Positions 8,871 to 64,000 of a stretch of 64,000 nt of DNA are shown one piece after another. This DNA comes from Bacteroidales bacterium (GTDB taxonomy: Bacteria; Bacteroidota; Bacteroidia; Bacteroidales; UBA932), in assembly GCA_016287875.1 (NCBI GenBank), contig JAEEXQ010000002.1, positions 24,756-88,755 of the forward strand, in the 5' to 3' direction. A model generated the notes under the pieces. It was not told where the DNA came from. It searched no databases and worked only from the letters and a program-made list of their open reading frames with translations. Both the position numbers and the translations under genes were made by a program. Numbering within the stretch: the first letter of the stretch is position 1; each line of letters opens with the position of its first letter.

Positions 8871-10322
8871 ATGTCAAGTATTAAAGATCTCAAACCCGCA
8901 AACGTATGGAATAATTTCTACCAGCTCACACGTCAGCCCCGCCCCTCCAAGCACGAGGAGAAGGTCCGCGCCTTCCTTCTCGACTGGGGCAAGAGCCACG
9001 GTGTCGAGACTTTTGCGGATGCTACCGGCAATGTGATAATGAAGGTCCCCGCAACACCGGGATATGAGAATCGCAAGACCGTAATACTCCAGGGCCATAT
9101 GGATATGGTTCCCCAGAAGAACAACGACGTCAAGCACGATTTCCTCACCGATCCTATCGAAACCTGGATAGACGGCGAGTGGGTCAAGGCCAAGGGTACC
9201 ACCCTCGGAGCCGACGACGGTATGGGCGTTGCTATGGCAATGGCAGTCGCCGAGAGCAAGGATCTCAAGCACGGCCCTGTCGAAATCCTCATCACCTATG
9301 ACGAAGAAACCGGTATGACCGGTGCCAACGCCCTCCAGCCCGGCGTGCTGAAGGGAGATATACTCGTGAACCTCGATTCCGAGACCGAAGGCGAGCTTTA
9401 TGTGGGCTGCGCCGGAGGTATGGATACCGAAGGCAGCGGAAGATACACCCAGGTACGCCGTCCTGCAGGCTACGAGGCCTATTCCCTCCAGGTGAAGGGA
9501 TGCCAGGGAGGACATTCCGGAATGGATATCATCCTCTGCCGCGCAAATGCCAACCGCATCGCCGCCCGACTGACCGATGTGATCCTCGCCAAGACCGACA
9601 GCAAGCTCGTGGAGTTCGCCGGAGGAAATATGCGCAACGCCATCCCCCGCGAAGCCGATGTCCTGCTCTATGTCAAGGATCCTGCAAAGGTGGCACGCGT
9701 GGTGACCAAGGCCGGCCGCGAGATATTCGACGAGTTCCGCCACACCGATCCCGATATGAAGATACTCTTCACTCCCGCCGATTTCCGCAAGGGCTATGTG
9801 AAGGATGACGAGGCCCGCGCCATAATCAACGCCGTACTGGCCTGCCCCGACGGCGTGGAGCGTATGTCCCAGACCATGCCCGGCACCGTGGAGACTTCCA
9901 ACAACCTCGCCATCGTAAAGATCGCTGACGGCAAGGTCTCGGTCGTTACCCTGATGCGCAGCTTCATCGACAGCGCCAAGGTGGCCCTTTCCCGCAAGAT
10001 TGCGGCAGTTCTCAACAATGCCGGAATCCATACCCGCTTCGTAGGCGGATACTCGGGCTGGGCACCGGACGACAAGAGCCAGATACTGCGCGTGATGAAG
10101 GAGTCCTACAAGAAACTTTACGGCAAGGAGCCCGAGGTGATGGCCATACACGCCGGCCTGGAATGCGGCATCATAGGCGGCATCTATCCCGGTCTGGATA
10201 TGATTTCCTTCGGTCCTACCCTCAAGAGTCCCCACTCCCCGGACGAGCGCTGCTACATCCCTTCGGTGCAGAAGGCGTGGGACTTCCTCGTGGCCGTACT
10301 TGAGGCAATTCCTGAAAAATAG
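8871..10322 (+). CDS. pepD: Aminoacyl-histidine dipeptidase (M20 family)
   Basis: LQGHMDMVPQKN, LGADDGMGVAMAMA, YDEETGMTGA, GGHSGMDI. Confidence 0.93.
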   Translation: MSSIKDLKPANVWNNFYQLTRQPRPSKHEEKVRAFLLDWGKSHGVETFADATGNVIMKVPATPGYENRKTVILQGHMDMVPQKNNDVKHDFLTDPIETWIDGEWVKAKGTTLGADDGMGVAMAMAVAESKDLKHGPVEILITYDEETGMTGANALQPGVLKGDILVNLDSETEGELYVGCAGGMDTEGSGRYTQVRRPAGYEAYSLQVKGCQGGHSGMDIILCRANANRIAARLTDVILAKTDSKLVEFAGGNMRNAIPREADVLLYVKDPAKVARVVTKAGREIFDEFRHTDPDMKILFTPADFRKGYVKDDEARAIINAVLACPDGVERMSQTMPGTVETSNNLAIVKIADGKVSVVTLMRSFIDSAKVALSRKIAAVLNNAGIHTRFVGGYSGWAPDDKSQILRVMKESYKKLYGKEPEVMAIHAGLECGIIGGIYPGLDMISFGPTLKSPHSPDERCYIPSVQKAWDFLVAVLEAIPEK

Positions 10323-10336
10323 CGACACACAGTGAC

Positions 10337-10358
10337 CGAAACTTGATTGTTAGTTTCG
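10337..10358. promoter_or_regulatory. Inverted repeat CGAAACT-N8-AGTTTCG between pepD and nrdD
   Basis: Perfect 7-bp arms read directly. Confidence 0.5.
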
Positions 10359-10375
10359 TGTTGATAACTTTTCCC

Positions 10376-10408
10376 GAGGATGCATTGACAAAGTGCATCC
10401 TCTTTTGT
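10376..10408 (+). terminator. Intrinsic terminator after pepD: GAGGATGCA-TTGACAAAG-TGCATCCTC followed by TTTTG
   Basis: Perfect 9-bp stem followed by a T run. Confidence 0.7.
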
Positions 10409-10416
10409 TAACTTTG
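10385..10416 (+). promoter_or_regulatory. nrdD promoter: TTG(ACA) -33, 21-nt spacer, TAACTTTG -7
   Basis: Consensus match; the -33 lies in the loop of the preceding hairpin. Confidence 0.6.
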
Positions 10417-10458
10417 TAAGACAATAGCGTGTAAAAATCCCTTATAACCTATAAATCT

Positions 10459-12645
10459 ATGGACGTCAGGAAAACAAACGGAAGCATTGAGGAATTCGAC
10501 CTCGAAAAGCTGAAGAACGGTATACGGCAGACTTACTTAGCCACAGGCCAGCATTGCCCGGAGGAGATCGTGGTCTCCATTACCGACAATCTTTACATAT
10601 ATGACAAGATGACGAGTCAGGAGATCCGTCGTCAGGTAGTCGATTCCCTGATGTCCGTCAACAAGAAGGCCGCCCTCGAATACATCGAAAAGTTCGACGA
10701 CGGAAAGGACCTGCGCAAGAAACGCGACTTCATCAAGGACTATATCAAGGCTTCGAACGCCGCCACCGGTTCCAAGTTCGATGCTAATGCCAACGTCACC
10801 CGCAAGAACATCGTGACGCTCGGCCAGGAGCTCTATAAGGAGAACAATATCAAGCAGAACCGTTATATAATGCAGGACAAGATCAAGAACCTCTATGGTC
10901 ACGAGCTTGCCGACCAGTATATAAAGGATCTGGAATCCCACGTCCTCTACAAGCACGACGAGAGCGGTACTCCCGGCTATCCCTACTGCGTGGCAATCAC
11001 CATGTATCCTTTCCTGGTGAGCGGCCTGCGTGAGCTGGGCGGAGTTTCCGTGGCGCCTACCGACCTCAAGAGCTTCTGCGGCGAGTTCATCAACCTGGTG
11101 TACTCCATTTCTTCGCAGTTCATGGGTGCGGTGGCTACCCCTGAATTCCTCATCTATCTCGATTATTTCATCCGCAAGGATTACGGGGATAACTACCTCG
11201 ACAGGCTTGACGAGGTGGTGGAGAACAATGCCAAGCAGCGCACCCTCACGAAGGTTATCGACAACTGCTTCCAGCAGGTGGTCCATTCTATGAACATGCC
11301 CGCCGGCAACCGTGGCTATCAGACCGTTTTCTGGAATATCGGCTACTTCGACAAGCCCTATTTCGAAGGCGTGTTCGGCGATTTCCGCTTCCCTGACGGC
11401 ACTCCCGCCAAGTGGGAGACCCTGGACTGGCTCCAGAGGCATTTCATGAACTGGTTCAACGAGGAGCGCAATCACTACATCCTCACCTTCCCCGTGGAGA
11501 CCATGGCACTGCTTACCGACGGCGGGGACGATTTCGCCGACAAGGACTACGCCGACTTCACCGCCGAGATGTGGAGCAAGGGGCACAGCTTCTTCTGCTA
11601 TCTGTCCAACAGCCCCGACAGCCTTTCCAGCTGCTGCCGTCTGCGCAACTCCCTCAAGGACCTCGACAACGAGGACGAGGAGCACAACCATACCACCCAC
11701 CAGTATTCCATGGGTACCGCTTCGGTTTCCACCGGTTCCAAGTCGGTCATGACCATCAACCTGAACCGTCTTATCCAGGATGCCGCCCGCGCCTACTTCC
11801 AGGAAGAGAAGCACGAGGAGCTGGAGCCCGGCAAGCCGCTTCAGAAGGGAAGCTACGACAAGGCAGTCCTCTACAAGCGCATCAGCGATGCCATCACCGC
11901 TGAAACCGAGCGCGTGCACAAGTATCAGATCGCTTTCAACGAGATTATCAAGGACTTCCTCAAGGCCGAGATGCTGGATGTCTATCGTGCCGGCTTCATC
12001 GATATGAAGCGCCAGTACCTTACCATAGGCGTGAACGGCCTTACTGATGCCGCAGAGTTCCTGGGTCTGGAGATTTCTCCCAACGATGAGTATAAGGAGT
12101 TCGTGAACAACCTGCTCGAGACCATCAATATCTCCAACCGAAAGGACCGCACCAAGGAGGCTATGTTCAACACTGAGTTCGTGCCCGGCGAGAACCTTTC
12201 CGGAAAGAACTACAATTGGGACCGCAAGGACGGATACTTCGTCTCGCCCAATCACAATATGTATTCCTCCTACTTCTACAATCCCGAGGACGACAAGCTG
12301 AGCATGATAGACAAGTTCAAGCTTCACGGGGAGGAGTACGTCAAGTTCCTCGACGGTGGCTCCGCACTTCATATGAACATCGCGGAGCACCTCAGCAAGG
12401 AGCAGTACAGGCAGCTGCTCAACACGGCGGCCCACTACGGCACCAACTACTTCACCTTCAACTGCCGCAATACCGTCTGCAATGATTGCGGATACATCAG
12501 CAAGGATACCCTCACCGTGTGTCCCAAGTGCGGCAGCACCAACCTGGATTATCTCACCCGTGTCATCGGTTACCTGAAGAGGATATCTTCCTTCAGCGAG
12601 ATGCGCCAGGAGGAGGCCTTCCACCGCTTCTACACCAAGAAGTGA
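10459..12645 (+). CDS. nrdD: Anaerobic ribonucleoside-triphosphate reductase
   Basis: N-terminal ATP-cone, C-terminal zinc motif CNDCGYISKDTLTVCPKCGS and RVIGYL glycyl-radical site. Confidence 0.95.
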   Translation: MDVRKTNGSIEEFDLEKLKNGIRQTYLATGQHCPEEIVVSITDNLYIYDKMTSQEIRRQVVDSLMSVNKKAALEYIEKFDDGKDLRKKRDFIKDYIKASNAATGSKFDANANVTRKNIVTLGQELYKENNIKQNRYIMQDKIKNLYGHELADQYIKDLESHVLYKHDESGTPGYPYCVAITMYPFLVSGLRELGGVSVAPTDLKSFCGEFINLVYSISSQFMGAVATPEFLIYLDYFIRKDYGDNYLDRLDEVVENNAKQRTLTKVIDNCFQQVVHSMNMPAGNRGYQTVFWNIGYFDKPYFEGVFGDFRFPDGTPAKWETLDWLQRHFMNWFNEERNHYILTFPVETMALLTDGGDDFADKDYADFTAEMWSKGHSFFCYLSNSPDSLSSCCRLRNSLKDLDNEDEEHNHTTHQYSMGTASVSTGSKSVMTINLNRLIQDAARAYFQEEKHEELEPGKPLQKGSYDKAVLYKRISDAITAETERVHKYQIAFNEIIKDFLKAEMLDVYRAGFIDMKRQYLTIGVNGLTDAAEFLGLEISPNDEYKEFVNNLLETINISNRKDRTKEAMFNTEFVPGENLSGKNYNWDRKDGYFVSPNHNMYSSYFYNPEDDKLSMIDKFKLHGEEYVKFLDGGSALHMNIAEHLSKEQYRQLLNTAAHYGTNYFTFNCRNTVCNDCGYISKDTLTVCPKCGSTNLDYLTRVIGYLKRISSFSEMRQEEAFHRFYTKK

Positions 12646-57512: not shown

Positions 57513-58793
57513 CTAGTGCTTGAAAAATCCCATATATACTATTCCCAGCGATACGGAGGGCTCGTCGTAATATCCGCTCCCCAGGAAACGCCGCGAATAC
57601 TCGCATTTGACGGCTATTTCCGGAATGGGAATCCAGTTTAGGCCAACAGCCTGGCGTATCTTCTCCGTGTAGGTCGCACTGGTCTGTCCCTTGGCGGGGA
57701 TATATGGATTGTAGGCCTCCGTGCGGCCGAATACATAGAGTTTCTGGCTTTTGTCCTTAAGGTTGAACCAGGGAAGTATGTCATAGCCTGCCTCAAACCC
57801 GAAAGCATAGGCGGCACGTCCCACCGGTTCCTTCGAATAGGGGGAATCGTTCGCGGCCCGTACGGCCTTGGCTTTGCTGATCTCGGCAGAGTCGTCCAGG
57901 GTGGCATAATCCGCATTGCCCCTGACCGTAAGGCGTGAGGAGACATATTCGAAGTCGAAGGAAGCGATAAGTACGGTTCCCCTGCATTTGTCGTATTTGA
58001 GTCCGTCGCCCTTGAGGTCGTTCGGGTAGGTGTTGTGCATCGAATTGCCGAACCATCCGCTCAGGCCAAGGCGGAGATTCCTGAACGACGTGTTGTCTAT
58101 ACGCCCCGCAAATCCATAGGTGTTGGCCACCTTGAATTCATAAGGCGAGACCGCTCCCTTCTTGATGAAATTGTCGGTATTGAACATAAAGGCATCCAGA
58201 CCTGCCACCATCAAGGCTTCATAGTGCCAGTCCCCGGCATCGCCCCAGATGTTTATTCCCGTGTCGTGCCAGGTGGAAGGGAAGATGGTGTACTCTCCCT
58301 CCGGGCGGTACACCGTGAAATAATTCATCGGTTCGTGCGAATTGTTGAGGGCGCCCACGGGCACTACGATATGGCCCACGCGCACGTTCAGGCAGTTGGA
58401 GAAGCTTTTCTGAATCCAGAATTGTTCCAGCGCCACTTCTCCTCCTTTCTCGATTTCCTGCTCGAACTCGCCGGCTTCTTCATATTCCCTCTCTATCGTC
58501 GCACCTGTACCGAGGTGCTCGAATTCTATCTCGCTCTGCATGGTCCATCCTTTGCCGAAATCATATCCTATGGCAAAGGTGGCGTGGGGGATGTCGAAAC
58601 GGCCGTGACCGGGAGCATCTTTGTAATTATCGGGTTTCGCGTAGATATATGGGCTGTCAGTATAAAAATTGCGGGTCATCGCAATTTCCCCATAGCCGCC
58701 TATGGTAAGAGCTTTTCTATCGTGAGTCTGGGCATTCAGGCTTATGCTGCCGAGAAGAATGGCCAGAGCGGCCGTATATATCGAAGATTTCAT
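57513..58793 (-). CDS. Outer-membrane porin-like protein
   Basis: Signal peptide MKSSIYTAALAILLGSISLNAQ; IGGYGEIAMTRNFYTD; C-terminal aromatic beta-strand SLGIVYMGFFKH. Confidence 0.75.
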   Translation of the reverse strand: MKSSIYTAALAILLGSISLNAQTHDRKALTIGGYGEIAMTRNFYTDSPYIYAKPDNYKDAPGHGRFDIPHATFAIGYDFGKGWTMQSEIEFEHLGTGATIEREYEEAGEFEQEIEKGGEVALEQFWIQKSFSNCLNVRVGHIVVPVGALNNSHEPMNYFTVYRPEGEYTIFPSTWHDTGINIWGDAGDWHYEALMVAGLDAFMFNTDNFIKKGAVSPYEFKVANTYGFAGRIDNTSFRNLRLGLSGWFGNSMHNTYPNDLKGDGLKYDKCRGTVLIASFDFEYVSSRLTVRGNADYATLDDSAEISKAKAVRAANDSPYSKEPVGRAAYAFGFEAGYDILPWFNLKDKSQKLYVFGRTEAYNPYIPAKGQTSATYTEKIRQAVGLNWIPIPEIAVKCEYSRRFLGSGYYDEPSVSLGIVYMGFFKH

Positions 58794-58799
58794 TGTCTG

Positions 58800-58872
58800 T
58801 TTACCATTTTGTGGTGCAAAATTAGCTTGCAGTCCGTTATCGGTCAATCGCCAATAATGGTTAAATGGTAAA
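58800..58872. promoter_or_regulatory. Inverted pair TTTACCATTT (58800-58809) / AAATGGTAAA (58863-58872) flanking a minus-strand promoter with -7 TAATTTTG
   Basis: Perfect 10-bp arms, centres 63 bp apart. Confidence 0.6.
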
Positions 58873-58892: not shown

Positions 58893-60335
58893 CTATTTCT
58901 TGAATATCTTGTAGCCCAGGGCGGCAACCAGCACGCTCATCAGCGGGCTAAGTATGTTGAAGAAGCAATAAGGCAGATAAACCAGCGTCGGAGTGCTGAG
59001 TATGGTCGCCTGCGTCATTCCGCAGGTGTTCCAGGGCACCAGTACGGAGGTTACGGTGGCGGAATCCTCCACCGAACGGCTCAGGAGCCTGTTCTCGTAA
59101 CCGGAATCTTCGTAGATATCCTTGAAGATGTTTGCCGTCAGCATTATGGCCAGGTACTGGTCGCATACGAAGGTATTCAGAGTGGCTCCGGTTCCGACCG
59201 TGGATGCCACCAGCCCGGTGCGGTTGCCGGTGAACTTGCGCATAGCCTTCATCAGGGCATCTATCATTCCGCCGGCCCTCATACAGGCGCCGAAGCACAT
59301 CGCGCAGATGATAAGATAGACGGTATTCAGCATTCCGGTCATCCCTCGGGACATTACCAGTTCGTTCACCTGGGCATTCCCAGTATCCAGGGACACCGTG
59401 TTGTAGATGCTTTCGACCGTGCCCGCCAGCATTATCTTCCAATCGCTGAGAGGGCCCTCGATCCCGTGGGCCAGGGCTGCGCCGCGGCCTATTCCCCGGA
59501 TGATGTCCGGCTGGAAGAGTATGGCGGCGACGGAGGCCATCACTATCGAAAGCGCCAGCACTATAAGGGCGGGAGTCCTGCGGGCTATCAGCACGCCGGT
59601 GACCAGCGGGACCAGCAGCAGCCATGGGCTGATGCGGAATTTCGAAGACAGCACATCCGTGAAGGCGCTCATATCCGCCGGAGTGTCCGGAGCCCCGTTT
59701 AGCCCGATGACGGTAAAGGCGATCAGGGCGATGACGAAGGACGGCACGGTGGTAATCAGCATATACCTTATATGGGTGAAGAGCGGGGTGTTCACTATGG
59801 AAGATGCCAGCACGGTGGTATCCGAGAGGGGAGATATCTTGTCGCCGAAATATGCGCCCGAGATGATTGCACCGGCAATCAGCCCGTCGCTGAAGCCTTC
59901 AGCCTTGCCAATTCCCAGCAGGGCCACGCCTACTGTGGCGATGGTGGTCCAGGAGCTGCCCAGCATAAGGGAAACAGCCGCGCAGATCAGGCAGGCGGCA
60001 GGGAGGAAGAAGGAGGGGGAGAGCACCTTCACTCCATAGCATATCATCGTAGGCACTATCCCGCTCATAGTCCAGGTGCCGGAGATGGCACCGATCAGCA
60101 ACAGTATCACTATCGCCGAGGTAACATTGCCTATGTTGCTCTTGATTCCCTCTTCGAAGGCCGACCAGCGCACCTTGAACAGCCACATCGACAGCCAGAC
60201 GGCTATGCCCGTGGCCAGCAGCAGGGCTACCTGGCTGGCGCCTTGTATGGAGTCGCTGCCGAGAATGCTTACGTTGAACGCCAGCATGGCGATCAGCACG
60301 ACTATTGGAATAAGGGATATGAGGGCCTTTTTCAT
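58893..60335 (-). CDS. nhaC: NhaC-type Na+/H+ antiporter
   Basis: 480 aa; GAYFGDKISPLSDTTVLAS; LMLGSSWTTIATVGVALLGIG. Confidence 0.92.
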   Translation of the reverse strand: MKKALISLIPIVVLIAMLAFNVSILGSDSIQGASQVALLLATGIAVWLSMWLFKVRWSAFEEGIKSNIGNVTSAIVILLLIGAISGTWTMSGIVPTMICYGVKVLSPSFFLPAACLICAAVSLMLGSSWTTIATVGVALLGIGKAEGFSDGLIAGAIISGAYFGDKISPLSDTTVLASSIVNTPLFTHIRYMLITTVPSFVIALIAFTVIGLNGAPDTPADMSAFTDVLSSKFRISPWLLLVPLVTGVLIARRTPALIVLALSIVMASVAAILFQPDIIRGIGRGAALAHGIEGPLSDWKIMLAGTVESIYNTVSLDTGNAQVNELVMSRGMTGMLNTVYLIICAMCFGACMRAGGMIDALMKAMRKFTGNRTGLVASTVGTGATLNTFVCDQYLAIMLTANIFKDIYEDSGYENRLLSRSVEDSATVTSVLVPWNTCGMTQATILSTPTLVYLPYCFFNILSPLMSVLVAALGYKIFKK

Positions 60336-63241
60336 AGCTTGATGACGGCTTTCCCGGTACGTCCGTCAACACAGGCCTTCAAGGGGGAATCCAGTTCTAT
60401 ATGCCGTATGAAAGTTCCTTCTTCCGCAGCGGGGAGCTTTTCCAGCGCTTCGAAATCCAGGAAATCGGCGGCGCGGCTGAACTCGTCCACGTTGATGTAG
60501 CCGGCATTGAAGGAAGTAAGGTTCTGGAAGAAGTGGGAGCCCTGGCTGGGATCCACCCGGAAATCGCTCAGCGAGCACTCCACTATGGCCCTGGCCTCGG
60601 AGATGTCGCTCCATACCACGGGTATGCCGAGGGTGGGGATGCTGGATCCCCAGCGTCCGTAGCCTATCAGGAGATAGCTGCGGCCGGCATCGCGCAGGCG
60701 GGCGTTGAGGTTGCGGACTTCTTCCGCGATCTGGGTGGTGCGCATCTTGTCGAAACTCTCTTTCCTGACATACACTATGTCTTTTATGTCGGGAATCCAG
60801 CCAGTCCCGAGGGCGCAGGAGGAGCGTACCAGCGCTCCGTTTTCGTCGATGGTCTTCCAGTCCACCTCGGTCTTCATGCTGTCGGACGAGATCGGCCGTA
60901 TCTGCAGCAGATGGAAGGTGCGGGATTCGAGGTCGGCCGCGAATTCTATCTCCACGCTGCATTTCATTTCGTCGTCCGCGATCTTCATCAGCTCCCTGAG
61001 TATGTCGGCGAGGGGGAAGGTGTCGTAGCGCAGCACGTGCGCGAAGGTCACTACCTTGGGCCCGACGGCGGAAGGGGAGTCCACCATGCGCTGGTTCTCG
61101 TAGTCGTAGGTGGAAACAACCTTGGAGAACTCCCGGAACTTGCCGCAGTCCACTATGGGAATGCGTTCCAGGTTCACGGCGTCGTCTACCGAGGTCTTGA
61201 ATTTGCCCGGCTGGAGGTTGAGGGCGTACATGGTCTGCTGGGTGTCCCTCATCGCCAGTTCGGGAGTGGATGTCTGGAGCACGTTCCTCGGATAGCAGGG
61301 CGAGAAACGCAGCACCTGGTCCCCGTCCACGACGGATTTGCCCAGGCCGAAGGCTATCTTGGCTATGCCTTCCTCAGGTTTTTCGTATCCTACGGGATAG
61401 AAGTTCACCGAACGGACTACTCCCGAGATGGTAGGGAAGAAGTATCCTCCGTCTTCGCTGCCGCAGATTTCCTGGAGGATGATGCCCATCTTCTCTTCGG
61501 AGATGACGTTGGCAGTTGCGGTGATATAGCCTCTGGAAGAAGCGTAGTACACCGAGGCATAGACGCTCTTGATGGCGTTCGAGAGCAGGCGGAGCTGCTG
61601 GTCCTCGTTCTCGGTGCGGGGAATCATATAGGTGGAGTAGACTCCTGCGAACGGCTGGTAGTAGGAATCTTCCAGTTTCGAAGATGAGCGTACCGCCAGC
61701 GGCTTGTCGATGTGCCGGATGAATATGCGCAGGTAACTCATCAGGTCGGCAGGGAGGGTGGACGAGACGAACTGGGTGAGCAGCTCGCTGTCGGAAAGGT
61801 CGGCGTTGATTACATACTGCAGGCCGTTCTCGAGAATGAAGCGGTCGAAGTATTCGGTGGAAATGACCAGGGTGCGGGGTACCATCACCCGCACGTCCTC
61901 CCAGCGGTCGTAGAGCTTGTGCTTGTAGAGCAGATGGCTCAGGAAGGCGAGTCCGCGGGCCTTTCCTCCGGTGGAACCCTCACCTATGCGGGCGAAACCT
62001 ATGGTGTCGTTGTAGGTGTCGGGGTTGAATCTGGCCACTACGCCCAGGCTCTGGGTGGTGCGGTACTCGTGGATAAGCTTTACGGCGGTGGTGCGCAGCT
62101 CGTCCACATCCTTCGAAGTGATGTTCTTGAGCTTGTTGCCCGCCGAGAAAATACCCCTGGCAAGCAGCCAGCGGGAAATATAGTTCTTGGAACGCAGCAC
62201 CTCCAGCAGGCTGTCCTGCACGGTGGAGATGATGTGTTCGGCGCCTTGCAGGTCGGATGCCCTGGCAACCTGGCGGAGCTTGCTGTCGGTGACAACGAAG
62301 TCGCCGAAGCCGAACTCCCGGCCTATGTATTCGCCAAGTTCGTGGGTGAGGGTCTTGGACCTCTTCATCAGGAAGCCGACCTTCATCTGCTCGGCCACGC
62401 TGCGCATGCTTTCCTGCGAAGACTGCATCAGGATGGGCATCTTTGGCATCTGCTCGCGTATGAGCCTGCATAAGTCGATGCCGGCATCCAGTTTCTCTTC
62501 CGACGACTTGTCGCCCCTGTGGAGCACGAAGCCTATGTCGGAGATGACTCCGAGCATCTGGCCTTTGTAGCGCTCGAACAGGGAAACGGCGTCGTCGTAA
62601 TTGGTTGCCATCAGTATCTTGGGGCGGGCCCTCTTTCGGAAGATCTGCTGCTCTTCGTTGAGGGCATCCTTGAGGGCGGCGACATTCTGCTGGAGAACCA
62701 GCTTGTACAGCAGGGGAAGATAGGTGGAGTAGTATCTCACTGAATCTTCCACCAGCAAAATGCATTGTACACCGCCTTCGAGAATGTCTTCTTCGGCATT
62801 GAGGGAGTCCTCAAGCAGTTTGATGATGGCGATTATAAGGTCGGTCGAACCGCTCCAGCAGAAGGCGTAGTCGATGTTGCTGCGGTCCTGCTCCTGCATC
62901 CTGCGCCAGACCTCCTTCGAATAGGAGGTAAGCAGCACGATGGGAGTTTCGGGCGCGACGGCCTTCATCTTGCCGGAGAAATCGAACACATCGATGGAAC
63001 CGACATTGTACATCGTGATTACAAGGTCGAAACTCTCGCCTTCTTCCACCAGACGGAGCGCGTCCGCGGTGGTCTCCACCCTCACGAACTGGGGCGGATT
63101 GGAAAGGTTCAGCTCGGAATACTCGCGCGAGATGCGCATATCCAGCCTGCCGTCCTCTTCCAGCGAGAAGTTGTCGTAGTTGTTGCACACCAGCAGGATC
63201 CTGCGGATGCGTCGGCTCATCAATGCTACGTTGTCGGCCAT
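60332..63241 (-). CDS. Two receiver-like domains + PPDK_N (PEP/pyruvate-binding ATP-grasp) + uncharacterised C-terminal domain; no phosphohistidine or PEP TIM-barrel domain
   Basis: N-terminal IRRILLVCNNYD... and VQCILLVEDSV...VISDIGF...MKRS; GGKARGLAFLSHLL, PLAVRSSSKLEDSYYQPFAGVYST, FHLLQIRPI; no GGxTSHxAIxAR motif. Confidence 0.85.
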   Translation of the reverse strand: MADNVALMSRRIRRILLVCNNYDNFSLEEDGRLDMRISREYSELNLSNPPQFVRVETTADALRLVEEGESFDLVITMYNVGSIDVFDFSGKMKAVAPETPIVLLTSYSKEVWRRMQEQDRSNIDYAFCWSGSTDLIIAIIKLLEDSLNAEEDILEGGVQCILLVEDSVRYYSTYLPLLYKLVLQQNVAALKDALNEEQQIFRKRARPKILMATNYDDAVSLFERYKGQMLGVISDIGFVLHRGDKSSEEKLDAGIDLCRLIREQMPKMPILMQSSQESMRSVAEQMKVGFLMKRSKTLTHELGEYIGREFGFGDFVVTDSKLRQVARASDLQGAEHIISTVQDSLLEVLRSKNYISRWLLARGIFSAGNKLKNITSKDVDELRTTAVKLIHEYRTTQSLGVVARFNPDTYNDTIGFARIGEGSTGGKARGLAFLSHLLYKHKLYDRWEDVRVMVPRTLVISTEYFDRFILENGLQYVINADLSDSELLTQFVSSTLPADLMSYLRIFIRHIDKPLAVRSSSKLEDSYYQPFAGVYSTYMIPRTENEDQQLRLLSNAIKSVYASVYYASSRGYITATANVISEEKMGIILQEICGSEDGGYFFPTISGVVRSVNFYPVGYEKPEEGIAKIAFGLGKSVVDGDQVLRFSPCYPRNVLQTSTPELAMRDTQQTMYALNLQPGKFKTSVDDAVNLERIPIVDCGKFREFSKVVSTYDYENQRMVDSPSAVGPKVVTFAHVLRYDTFPLADILRELMKIADDEMKCSVEIEFAADLESRTFHLLQIRPISSDSMKTEVDWKTIDENGALVRSSCALGTGWIPDIKDIVYVRKESFDKMRTTQIAEEVRNLNARLRDAGRSYLLIGYGRWGSSIPTLGIPVVWSDISEARAIVECSLSDFRVDPSQGSHFFQNLTSFNAGYINVDEFSRAADFLDFEALEKLPAAEEGTFIRHIELDSPLKACVDGRTGKAVIKL

Positions 63242-63253
63242 CGTGTCCGGTGA

Positions 63254-64000
63254 TTAGACTATACCCTGATCTATCATTGCGTTTGCAACCTTGATGAATC
63301 CGGCAAGGTTCGCACCCTTTACGTAGTTGACGTGCCCGTCAGCTTCGGTGCCGTATTTCAGGCAGGCTGCGTGGATGTCGGACATTATGCGGTGCAGCTG
63401 TGCATCGACTTCTTCGGCGGTCCAGTGCAGACGCATCGAGTTCTGGCTCATCTCTAGTCCGGAAGTGGCCACGCCGCCGGCGTTGGAAGCCTTTCCGGGG
63501 GAGTAGAGTATCCTGGCCTGCTGGAAGACCTCGATAGCCTCGGGGGTGGAGGGCATGTTGGCACCTTCCGCCACGCAGTAGCATCCGCCCTTTACGAGGG
63601 CCTCTGCATCAGCTTTGTCGATTTCGTTCTGGGTGGCGCAGGGGAGTGCGATGTCGCAGGGGATGCCCCAAGGACGCTCTCCGGGATAGTACTTCGCTGA
63701 AGGATACTTCTCCGCGTACTCCTTGATGCGGCCGCGGCGTATGTTCTTGAGCTGCTTGACGTATGCTACCTTCTCCTCGTCGAAGCCGTCGGGATCGTGG
63801 ATGAAGCCGTCGGAGTCGGAGAAGGTGACCACCTTTGCACCGAGGCGCATGGCCTTCTCGGCGGCGTGCTGGGCTACGTTGCCGGAGCCGGAAACGAGCA
63901 CCGTCTGGCCCTCGAAGCTCTTGCCCTGGGTGGCGAGCATCTGCTCTGCGAAGTAGCACAGGCCGTAACCGGTGGCTTCGGGGCGCAGTATGGAGCCGCC
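63254..64000 (-). CDS. gdhA: NADP-type glutamate dehydrogenase (partial, 5' end outside the window)
   Basis: GGSILRPEATGYGLCYFAEQML; VLVSGSGNVAQHAAEKA; PCATQNEID; EGANMPST. Confidence 0.95.
   Translation of the reverse strand, partial: GGSILRPEATGYGLCYFAEQMLATQGKSFEGQTVLVSGSGNVAQHAAEKAMRLGAKVVTFSDSDGFIHDPDGFDEEKVAYVKQLKNIRRGRIKEYAEKYPSAKYYPGERPWGIPCDIALPCATQNEIDKADAEALVKGGCYCVAEGANMPSTPEAIEVFQQARILYSPGKASNAGGVATSGLEMSQNSMRLHWTAEEVDAQLHRIMSDIHAACLKYGTEADGHVNYVKGANLAGFIKVANAMIDQGIV

Follow-up and report, generated by a model that had tools for sequence, protein, structure and literature searches.

The protein encoded between gdhA and nhaC in the window, i.e., the whole 64,000-nucleotide stretch of contig JAEEXQ010000002.1 from a Bacteroidales bacterium that was analysed here, is regarded with moderate confidence as an ATP-dependent regulator that is dedicated to glutamate dehydrogenase (GDH) and acts under a two-component-type signal. 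It combines two receiver domains, a DUF5752-like segment, an ATP-grasp domain of the PPDK_N type and a C-terminal domain, and its gene is referred to here as the REC-PPDK gene. This assignment is based on the specific, duplicated and phylum-wide pairing of the gene with GDH, together with the retained residues of receiver 2 and of the ATP-grasp domain. Bacteroidota are major assimilators of ammonia in the gut, and GDH is the main nitrogen entry point. To our knowledge, the control of GDH activity in this phylum has not been established. The results single out one conserved protein, which almost every sampled Bacteroidales family possesses, as the cognate partner of GDH. It is probably the factor missing from the picture of how GDH is controlled in ammonia assimilation, a question that now becomes directly testable.

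Genetic Association with Glutamate Dehydrogenase

The REC-PPDK gene is an open reading frame of 969 codons with no internal stop. An earlier sequence-only reading had given its position as 60332-63241, which holds, and had left the strand unstated; it is the minus strand. Both junctions claimed there are present: 12 nt separate the stop codon of the upstream gdhA from the ATG of the REC-PPDK gene, whose stop overlaps the start of nhaC by 4 nt (ATGA). The link to gdhA proposed from these junctions recurs across Bacteroidales and in other classes, and is deeper than the window alone could reveal. Among 102 Bacteroidales genomes, GDH was located within 6 kb of one of two REC-PPDK paralogues in at least 38, a lower bound, as the genomes are drafts. 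Both paralogues are involved and the arrangement varies, with GDH downstream or upstream on the same strand, upstream and divergent, or convergent. Within the clade of the window, GDH directly precedes the REC-PPDK gene, often by approximately 4 nt according to the open reading frame boundaries used. Outside Bacteroidales, 20 loci from other classes of the phylum were fetched without regard to their neighbours. GDH was the immediate neighbour in 13 of these, and in one more a single gene lay between. When 11 loci chosen by architecture were included, 23 of 31 full-length copies directly followed a GDH gene of the same strand, at a distance of 26-443 nt. Adjacency to GDH by chance is expected at well under 1%, given approximately 3,500 genes per genome.

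The pairing is also duplicated. Outside Bacteroidales, genomes with two GDHs display GDH-partner-GDH-partner arrays that form two matched pairs. Distances within the REC-PPDK family correlate with those of GDH (r 0.65), a value reached in 0 of 5000 shuffles, and in five two-pair loci the observed pairing was the best of 32 within-genome swaps, a result that fits co-adaptation and duplication as a unit equally. Moreover, a further type of GDH (428 aa) lies in five loci beside relatives that lack receivers and/or carry a nucleotidyltransferase domain; in three of the five, a receiver-less copy of 572-583 aa occurs together with a nucleotidyltransferase-bearing copy of about 1060 aa. In the GDH tree, linkage recurs in several separate clades. 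Some unlinked GDHs, from genomes in which the protein was not found, are interspersed among them, and the tree gave no support for an obligate need of one GDH subtype for the protein. A possible source of the signal can be seen in locus L231, where a PAS/HisKA_3 kinase and a LuxR-type regulator, both confirmed by Pfam, are situated at 9785-11858 between two GDH-partner pairs; genes of similar size occur in the arrays of L232 and L241. The kinase, whose gene was seen in such an array only in genomes other than that of the window, may be the one that serves the receivers.

Domain Architecture and Conserved Residues

The whole protein was modelled with AlphaFold2 from 69 sequences, giving a predicted local distance difference test (pLDDT) score of 87.5 and a predicted template modelling (pTM) score of 0.79. 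The best Foldseek matches were the tandem-receiver protein PleD and the ATP-grasp domains of rifampin phosphotransferase, phosphoenolpyruvate (PEP) synthase and pyruvate phosphate dikinase (PPDK). Pfam identified a Response_reg match (E 1.6e-7 for the whole protein) whose best stretch, residues 54-110, falls in receiver 1. As the sequence-only reading had described, there are two N-terminal receivers of which the first is degenerate: Met77 occupies the phosphoacceptor position, and Met is found there in 139 of 150 full-length relatives. The second receiver was said to be retained, and in these 150 relatives E165, D235, S274, and K293 are invariant, while the order of elements in this region of the model is receiver-like. 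For the segment that follows, PF19027 (DUF5752) matched 11 of the 15 members of one alignment, the window protein itself being unmatched.

The complete PPDK_N ATP-grasp was borne out by a match at residues 423-799 (E 1.6e-36), and every motif that had been quoted for the protein is present. Loss of its catalytic residues had been named as a point to check. Across the same relatives, K427, R518, E524, D525, E583, E764, E766, and Q780 are invariant, of which K427, R518, E764, E766, and Q780 were named as the catalytic set by motif position. From these invariant residues, and from the Met in receiver 1, the protein appears to possess a working ATP-grasp domain, one intact receiver and one pseudo-receiver. 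It ends 170 residues past the ATP-grasp domain. The absence of both the swivel domain (PF00391) and the PEP/pyruvate barrel (PF02896) also stands, as neither was matched by Pfam in the whole protein even at E<=1.

The C-Terminal Domain and His903

The C-terminal domain of about 165 aa, for which neither a family nor a profile or fold was matched, reached a pLDDT of 89.6 when modelled alone. Invariant among the 150 relatives are GRWG (862-865), E888, S899, G901, H903, F904, F905, and N907. Here, H903 is the only His conserved in at least 90% of the sequences, it is invariant in 150 of 150, and it is kept in every architecture inspected. In the model it is located at the N-terminal end of a helix, after a strand, within an (S/T)HFF motif. 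A diverged phosphohistidine domain was suspected because of the C-terminal position and the (S/T)H motif. The protein may accordingly be envisaged as a hidden dikinase, in which a strongly diverged swivel domain with H903 as carrier would be autophosphorylated before the phosphate goes to an acceptor, an arrangement compatible with GDH as target. The sole invariant His lying past the ATP-grasp domain, as in PEP synthase, is consistent with such a role. The searches point the other way: comparison with about 30 swivel sequences by hhalign gave a probability of 0.4%, Foldseek found no match in the PDB at E<=1e-3 and no swivel domain in the top 50, and a PDB profile search returned nothing credible. 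A plain swivel domain, to which the order of motifs is alike by eye, was rejected on these results. They give no support for swivel homology, and a phospho-carrier role of H903 may nevertheless be compatible with them; we consider the hidden dikinase rather unlikely. The check for a cryptic C-terminal phosphohistidine domain was thus negative by profile and fold, while the only invariant His is found exactly there. A stand-alone swivel partner, which had also been proposed as a check, is absent from the genome, where the sole PF00391 match is PPDK itself.

Distribution, Family Variants, and Other Neighbours

The Bacteroidales draw took close to one genome per family, and the REC-PPDK protein was detected in 103 of its 119 genomes; it is therefore not the product of a chance open reading frame. 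Within the genus containing Bacteroides, which was picked out by a 16S fragment, 108 of 111 genomes have it. Across the phylum, matches came from 42 of the 248 genomes drawn, a figure that includes a few Bacteroidales. In many Bacteroidales there is also a longer paralogue, whose N-terminal part carries as many as four tandem modules of about 145 aa each. Examples are L051:3711-8387, L052:3220-7830, and L049:4373-8590, whose modules read ‘SERLKELxAINxTSxIL...WQYP...’; the modules had no strong match to a Pfam family and are perhaps sensory.

Among the phylum-wide relatives are proteins of about 580 aa that lack receivers, and others of about 1060 aa in which a C-terminal nucleotidyltransferase domain bears a GS...SDIDL motif. 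The relatives of 913-1065 aa beside the second GDH type (L225:4805-7987, L226:4960-8157, L227:9024-12218, L229:5840-8581, and L230:5641-8811) combine PPDK_N, the GRWG/THFF C-terminal domain and a Pol-beta-type PF01909 domain whose GS...SDIDL motif looks intact. In L225-L227, the receiver-less copy of 572-583 aa lies directly upstream of them. Two further proteins of 776-778 aa (L228:5599-7935 and L234:5799-8129) consist of PPDK_N and the GRWG/THFF domain without receivers, nucleotidyltransferase or a nearby GDH, and this core may have other partners too.

As regards other neighbours, korAB-like genes for 2-oxoglutarate:ferredoxin oxidoreductase, another enzyme of the 2-oxoglutarate node, occur upstream of the long paralogue in L040, L041, L042, L131, and L109. 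As a second conserved partner korAB was rejected, the kor genes listed being found within 6 kb of only 5 of 61 long and 5 of 84 short paralogues. An aminotransferase-like gene, of the alanine/aspartate type by look, adjoins non-GDH copies at L238:9368-10591 and L252:4864-6087.

The neighbourhoods bear on whether the protein might instead be a metabolic ATP-grasp enzyme, a ligase or small-molecule kinase acting on glutamate, 2-oxoglutarate or a derivative and tuned by the receivers, with GDH not being its target. Known PPDK_N enzymes act mostly on small molecules, the profile relatives include the ligases PigC and RedH, and a class I aminotransferase-like gene adjoins two of the non-GDH copies. 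The one-to-one match with each GDH type, tandem pairs included, is better explained by a GDH-specific partner, and no other pathway gene was constantly linked to the REC-PPDK gene in the loci examined. A purely metabolic role is considered unlikely.

The Bacteroides Locus and the 1996 Factor

A trans-acting factor for GdhA of Bacteroides thetaiotaomicron is indicated by the title of a 1996 paper (Baggio & Morrison 1996, PMID 8955404; title via PMC4539542). That species itself seems to lie outside the genomes searched, and the locus was therefore viewed in G453, a close relative (sister) recognized by a 50-mer with one mismatch. The order there is gdhB (445 aa), the REC-PPDK gene (990 aa), a catalase gene (486 aa), and gdhA (444 aa), the REC-PPDK gene being divergent from gdhB and convergent with gdhA. 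The names gdhA and gdhB in Bacteroides loci were given by length and sequence likeness, and the name catalase rests on the first part of the sequence and on how BT_1971 is annotated. Two papers call BT_1971 a catalase, which suggests that BT_1972 is the REC-PPDK gene. In G225 and G511, the REC-PPDK gene directly follows gdhA in convergent orientation with about 85-90 bp between them, and in G532 it is divergent from gdhB.

The likeness to the 1996 factor consists in the position downstream of gdhA in the sister species, the title of that paper being suggestive only. If the assignment is true, the REC-PPDK gene would give an identity to this factor. In the 1996 work, about 3 kb of DNA lying downstream is said to have brought back the activity of GdhA in trans in E. 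coli, reportedly with gdhA transcription unchanged by this DNA and with insertions in it unobtainable in B. thetaiotaomicron. Reversible inactivation of GDH in B. fragilis was reportedly described by Yamamoto and co-workers in 1987. The factor might also be the catalase or another neighbour, the REC-PPDK gene being placed beside GDH only for shared expression, and the catalase gene indeed lies between gdhA and the REC-PPDK gene in G453. No catalase lies between them in G225 and G511, and across the phylum it is the REC-PPDK protein, not catalase, that accompanies GDH, which makes this explanation quite improbable.

Proposed Mechanism

For a dedicated GDH regulator, the following sequence of events may be envisaged. 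A histidine kinase would phosphorylate D235 of receiver 2, which would alter the state of the ATP-grasp domain. The latter would then use ATP to modify GDH, or a ligand bound to GDH, through the C-terminal domain bearing H903, and GDH activity would be switched to match the supply of ammonia and 2-oxoglutarate. The target would be GDH itself and not a small molecule, with H903 as putative carrier, and the direction would most likely be activation, judging by the 1996 result in B. thetaiotaomicron. In its most specific form, which would amount to a new way of controlling metabolism, a response regulator with an ATP-grasp phosphotransferase as output would modify GDH covalently and reversibly via a new phosphohistidine domain with H903, with one modifier per isoform in Bacteroidota; this form is speculative and, taken as a whole, doubtful.

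Several points weigh against GDH regulation. In 7 of the 20 unselected loci, no GDH is adjacent. GDHs closely related to linked ones (L187 and L188) occur in genomes in which the protein was not found, possibly owing to an assembly gap, and the protein is hence not required by every such GDH. In G453, the catalase gene is nearer to gdhA and rivals the REC-PPDK gene as the 1996 factor. Finally, the action of an ATP-grasp domain of this type without a swivel has no explanation, and both the interaction and the chemistry are putative.

Features and Neighbouring Genes in the Window

The features are collected in Table 1. The gdhA stretch of the window (63254-64000) also occurs with 100% identity on contig G000:C21, and a second GDH is found at G000:C7:15370-16050, with a korA-like gene roughly 1.7 kb away. 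Downstream of nhaC, an open reading frame of 444 codons (57513-58847) has the look of an outer-membrane porin and had no match in Pfam or NCBIfam.

The sequence-only reading had further connected nitrogen assimilation with ion homeostasis through nhaC. This connection falls away, since nhaC adjoins the REC-PPDK gene only in L056, the closest complete relative found (81% identity), and nhaC was rejected as part of a conserved unit. A unit of gdhA, the REC-PPDK gene and nhaC that joins nitrogen assimilation with sodium/proton homeostasis, as the two junctions and L056 might suggest, is refuted as a general rule and very improbable, nhaC being directly downstream in no other locus examined, among them loci of 60-78% identity whose downstream region was in view.

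Table 1. Location of the REC-PPDK gene, its domains and key codons, and its neighbours in the window.
Feature	Position	Strand	Details and evidence
Receiver-receiver-DUF5752-like-ATP-grasp protein gene (REC-PPDK)	60332..63241	-	969 aa; open reading frame, Pfam, AlphaFold2, start/stop junctions
Receiver domain 1, pseudo-receiver	62852..63202	-	residues ~14-130; Met77 at phosphoacceptor position; Pfam Response_reg 54-110
Receiver domain 2, intact receiver set	62306..62770	-	residues ~158-312; E165, D166, D235, S274, K293
D235 codon, predicted phosphoacceptor	62537..62539	-	invariance among 150 relatives
Helical DUF5752-like segment	62012..62305	-	residues 313-410; PF19027
PPDK_N ATP-grasp domain	60845..61975	-	residues 423-799; Pfam, Foldseek, alignment
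C-terminal domain, no fold match	60335..60844	-	residues 800-969; G862-R863-W864-G865 and (S/T)HFFxN motifs
H903 codon	60533..60535	-	sole invariant His; 150/150 sequences
gdhA, NADP-type glutamate dehydrogenase, 3' part	63254..64000	-	contig end falls inside gene; Pfam
nhaC	58893..60335	-	4-nt overlap with REC-PPDK gene; linkage limited to nearest relative

Comparison with Known Systems

With PEP synthase and PPDK (PF01326) the window protein shares an ATP-grasp domain with polar catalytic residues, followed by a small C-terminal domain. Those enzymes possess the PF00391 swivel and the PF02896 barrel, whereas the window protein is without both, starts with two receivers followed by a DUF5752-like segment, and ends in a C-terminal domain without a fold match. 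For the ATP-grasp domain, Foldseek and the profile search both rank rifampin phosphotransferase first, with only part of the domain aligned in the latter. That enzyme has rifampin-binding and His domains, in contrast to the window protein, where neither a rifampin-binding nor a recognizable phosphohistidine domain was found, and the NCBIfam model RIF_Ptrans_rph scored 13.7 bits against a cut-off of 999. Compared with response regulators, receiver 2 has the acidic pocket, the phosphoacceptor Asp, the Ser and the Lys, while receiver 1 lacks the Asp.

The architecture had been thought undescribed, which does not hold. Proteins with receivers and PPDK are catalogued as ‘Bacteroides-like’ in PMC5847659, and receivers without the Asp are reported as enriched on PPDK effectors in PMC4395418; the relevant passages of both sources give no function or GDH link. 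The architecture in these two sources is very probably the same as that of the window protein. No literature on a function or GDH link of the REC-PPDK gene or BT_1972 was found in a search that left out most subscription journals.

As expected of a regulator dedicated to GDH, the genetic association of the REC-PPDK gene with GDH is specific and recurrent. In this respect it resembles control of the GlnE/GlnD type, in which a regulatory enzyme is likewise dedicated to an enzyme of nitrogen assimilation, and the GDH-linked relative with a Pol-beta-type nucleotidyltransferase domain also recalls GlnE/GlnD. Here, the core is an ATP-grasp domain and the partner is GDH instead of glutamine synthetase. 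It is this GDH partner that is new, in an architecture known before without a function.

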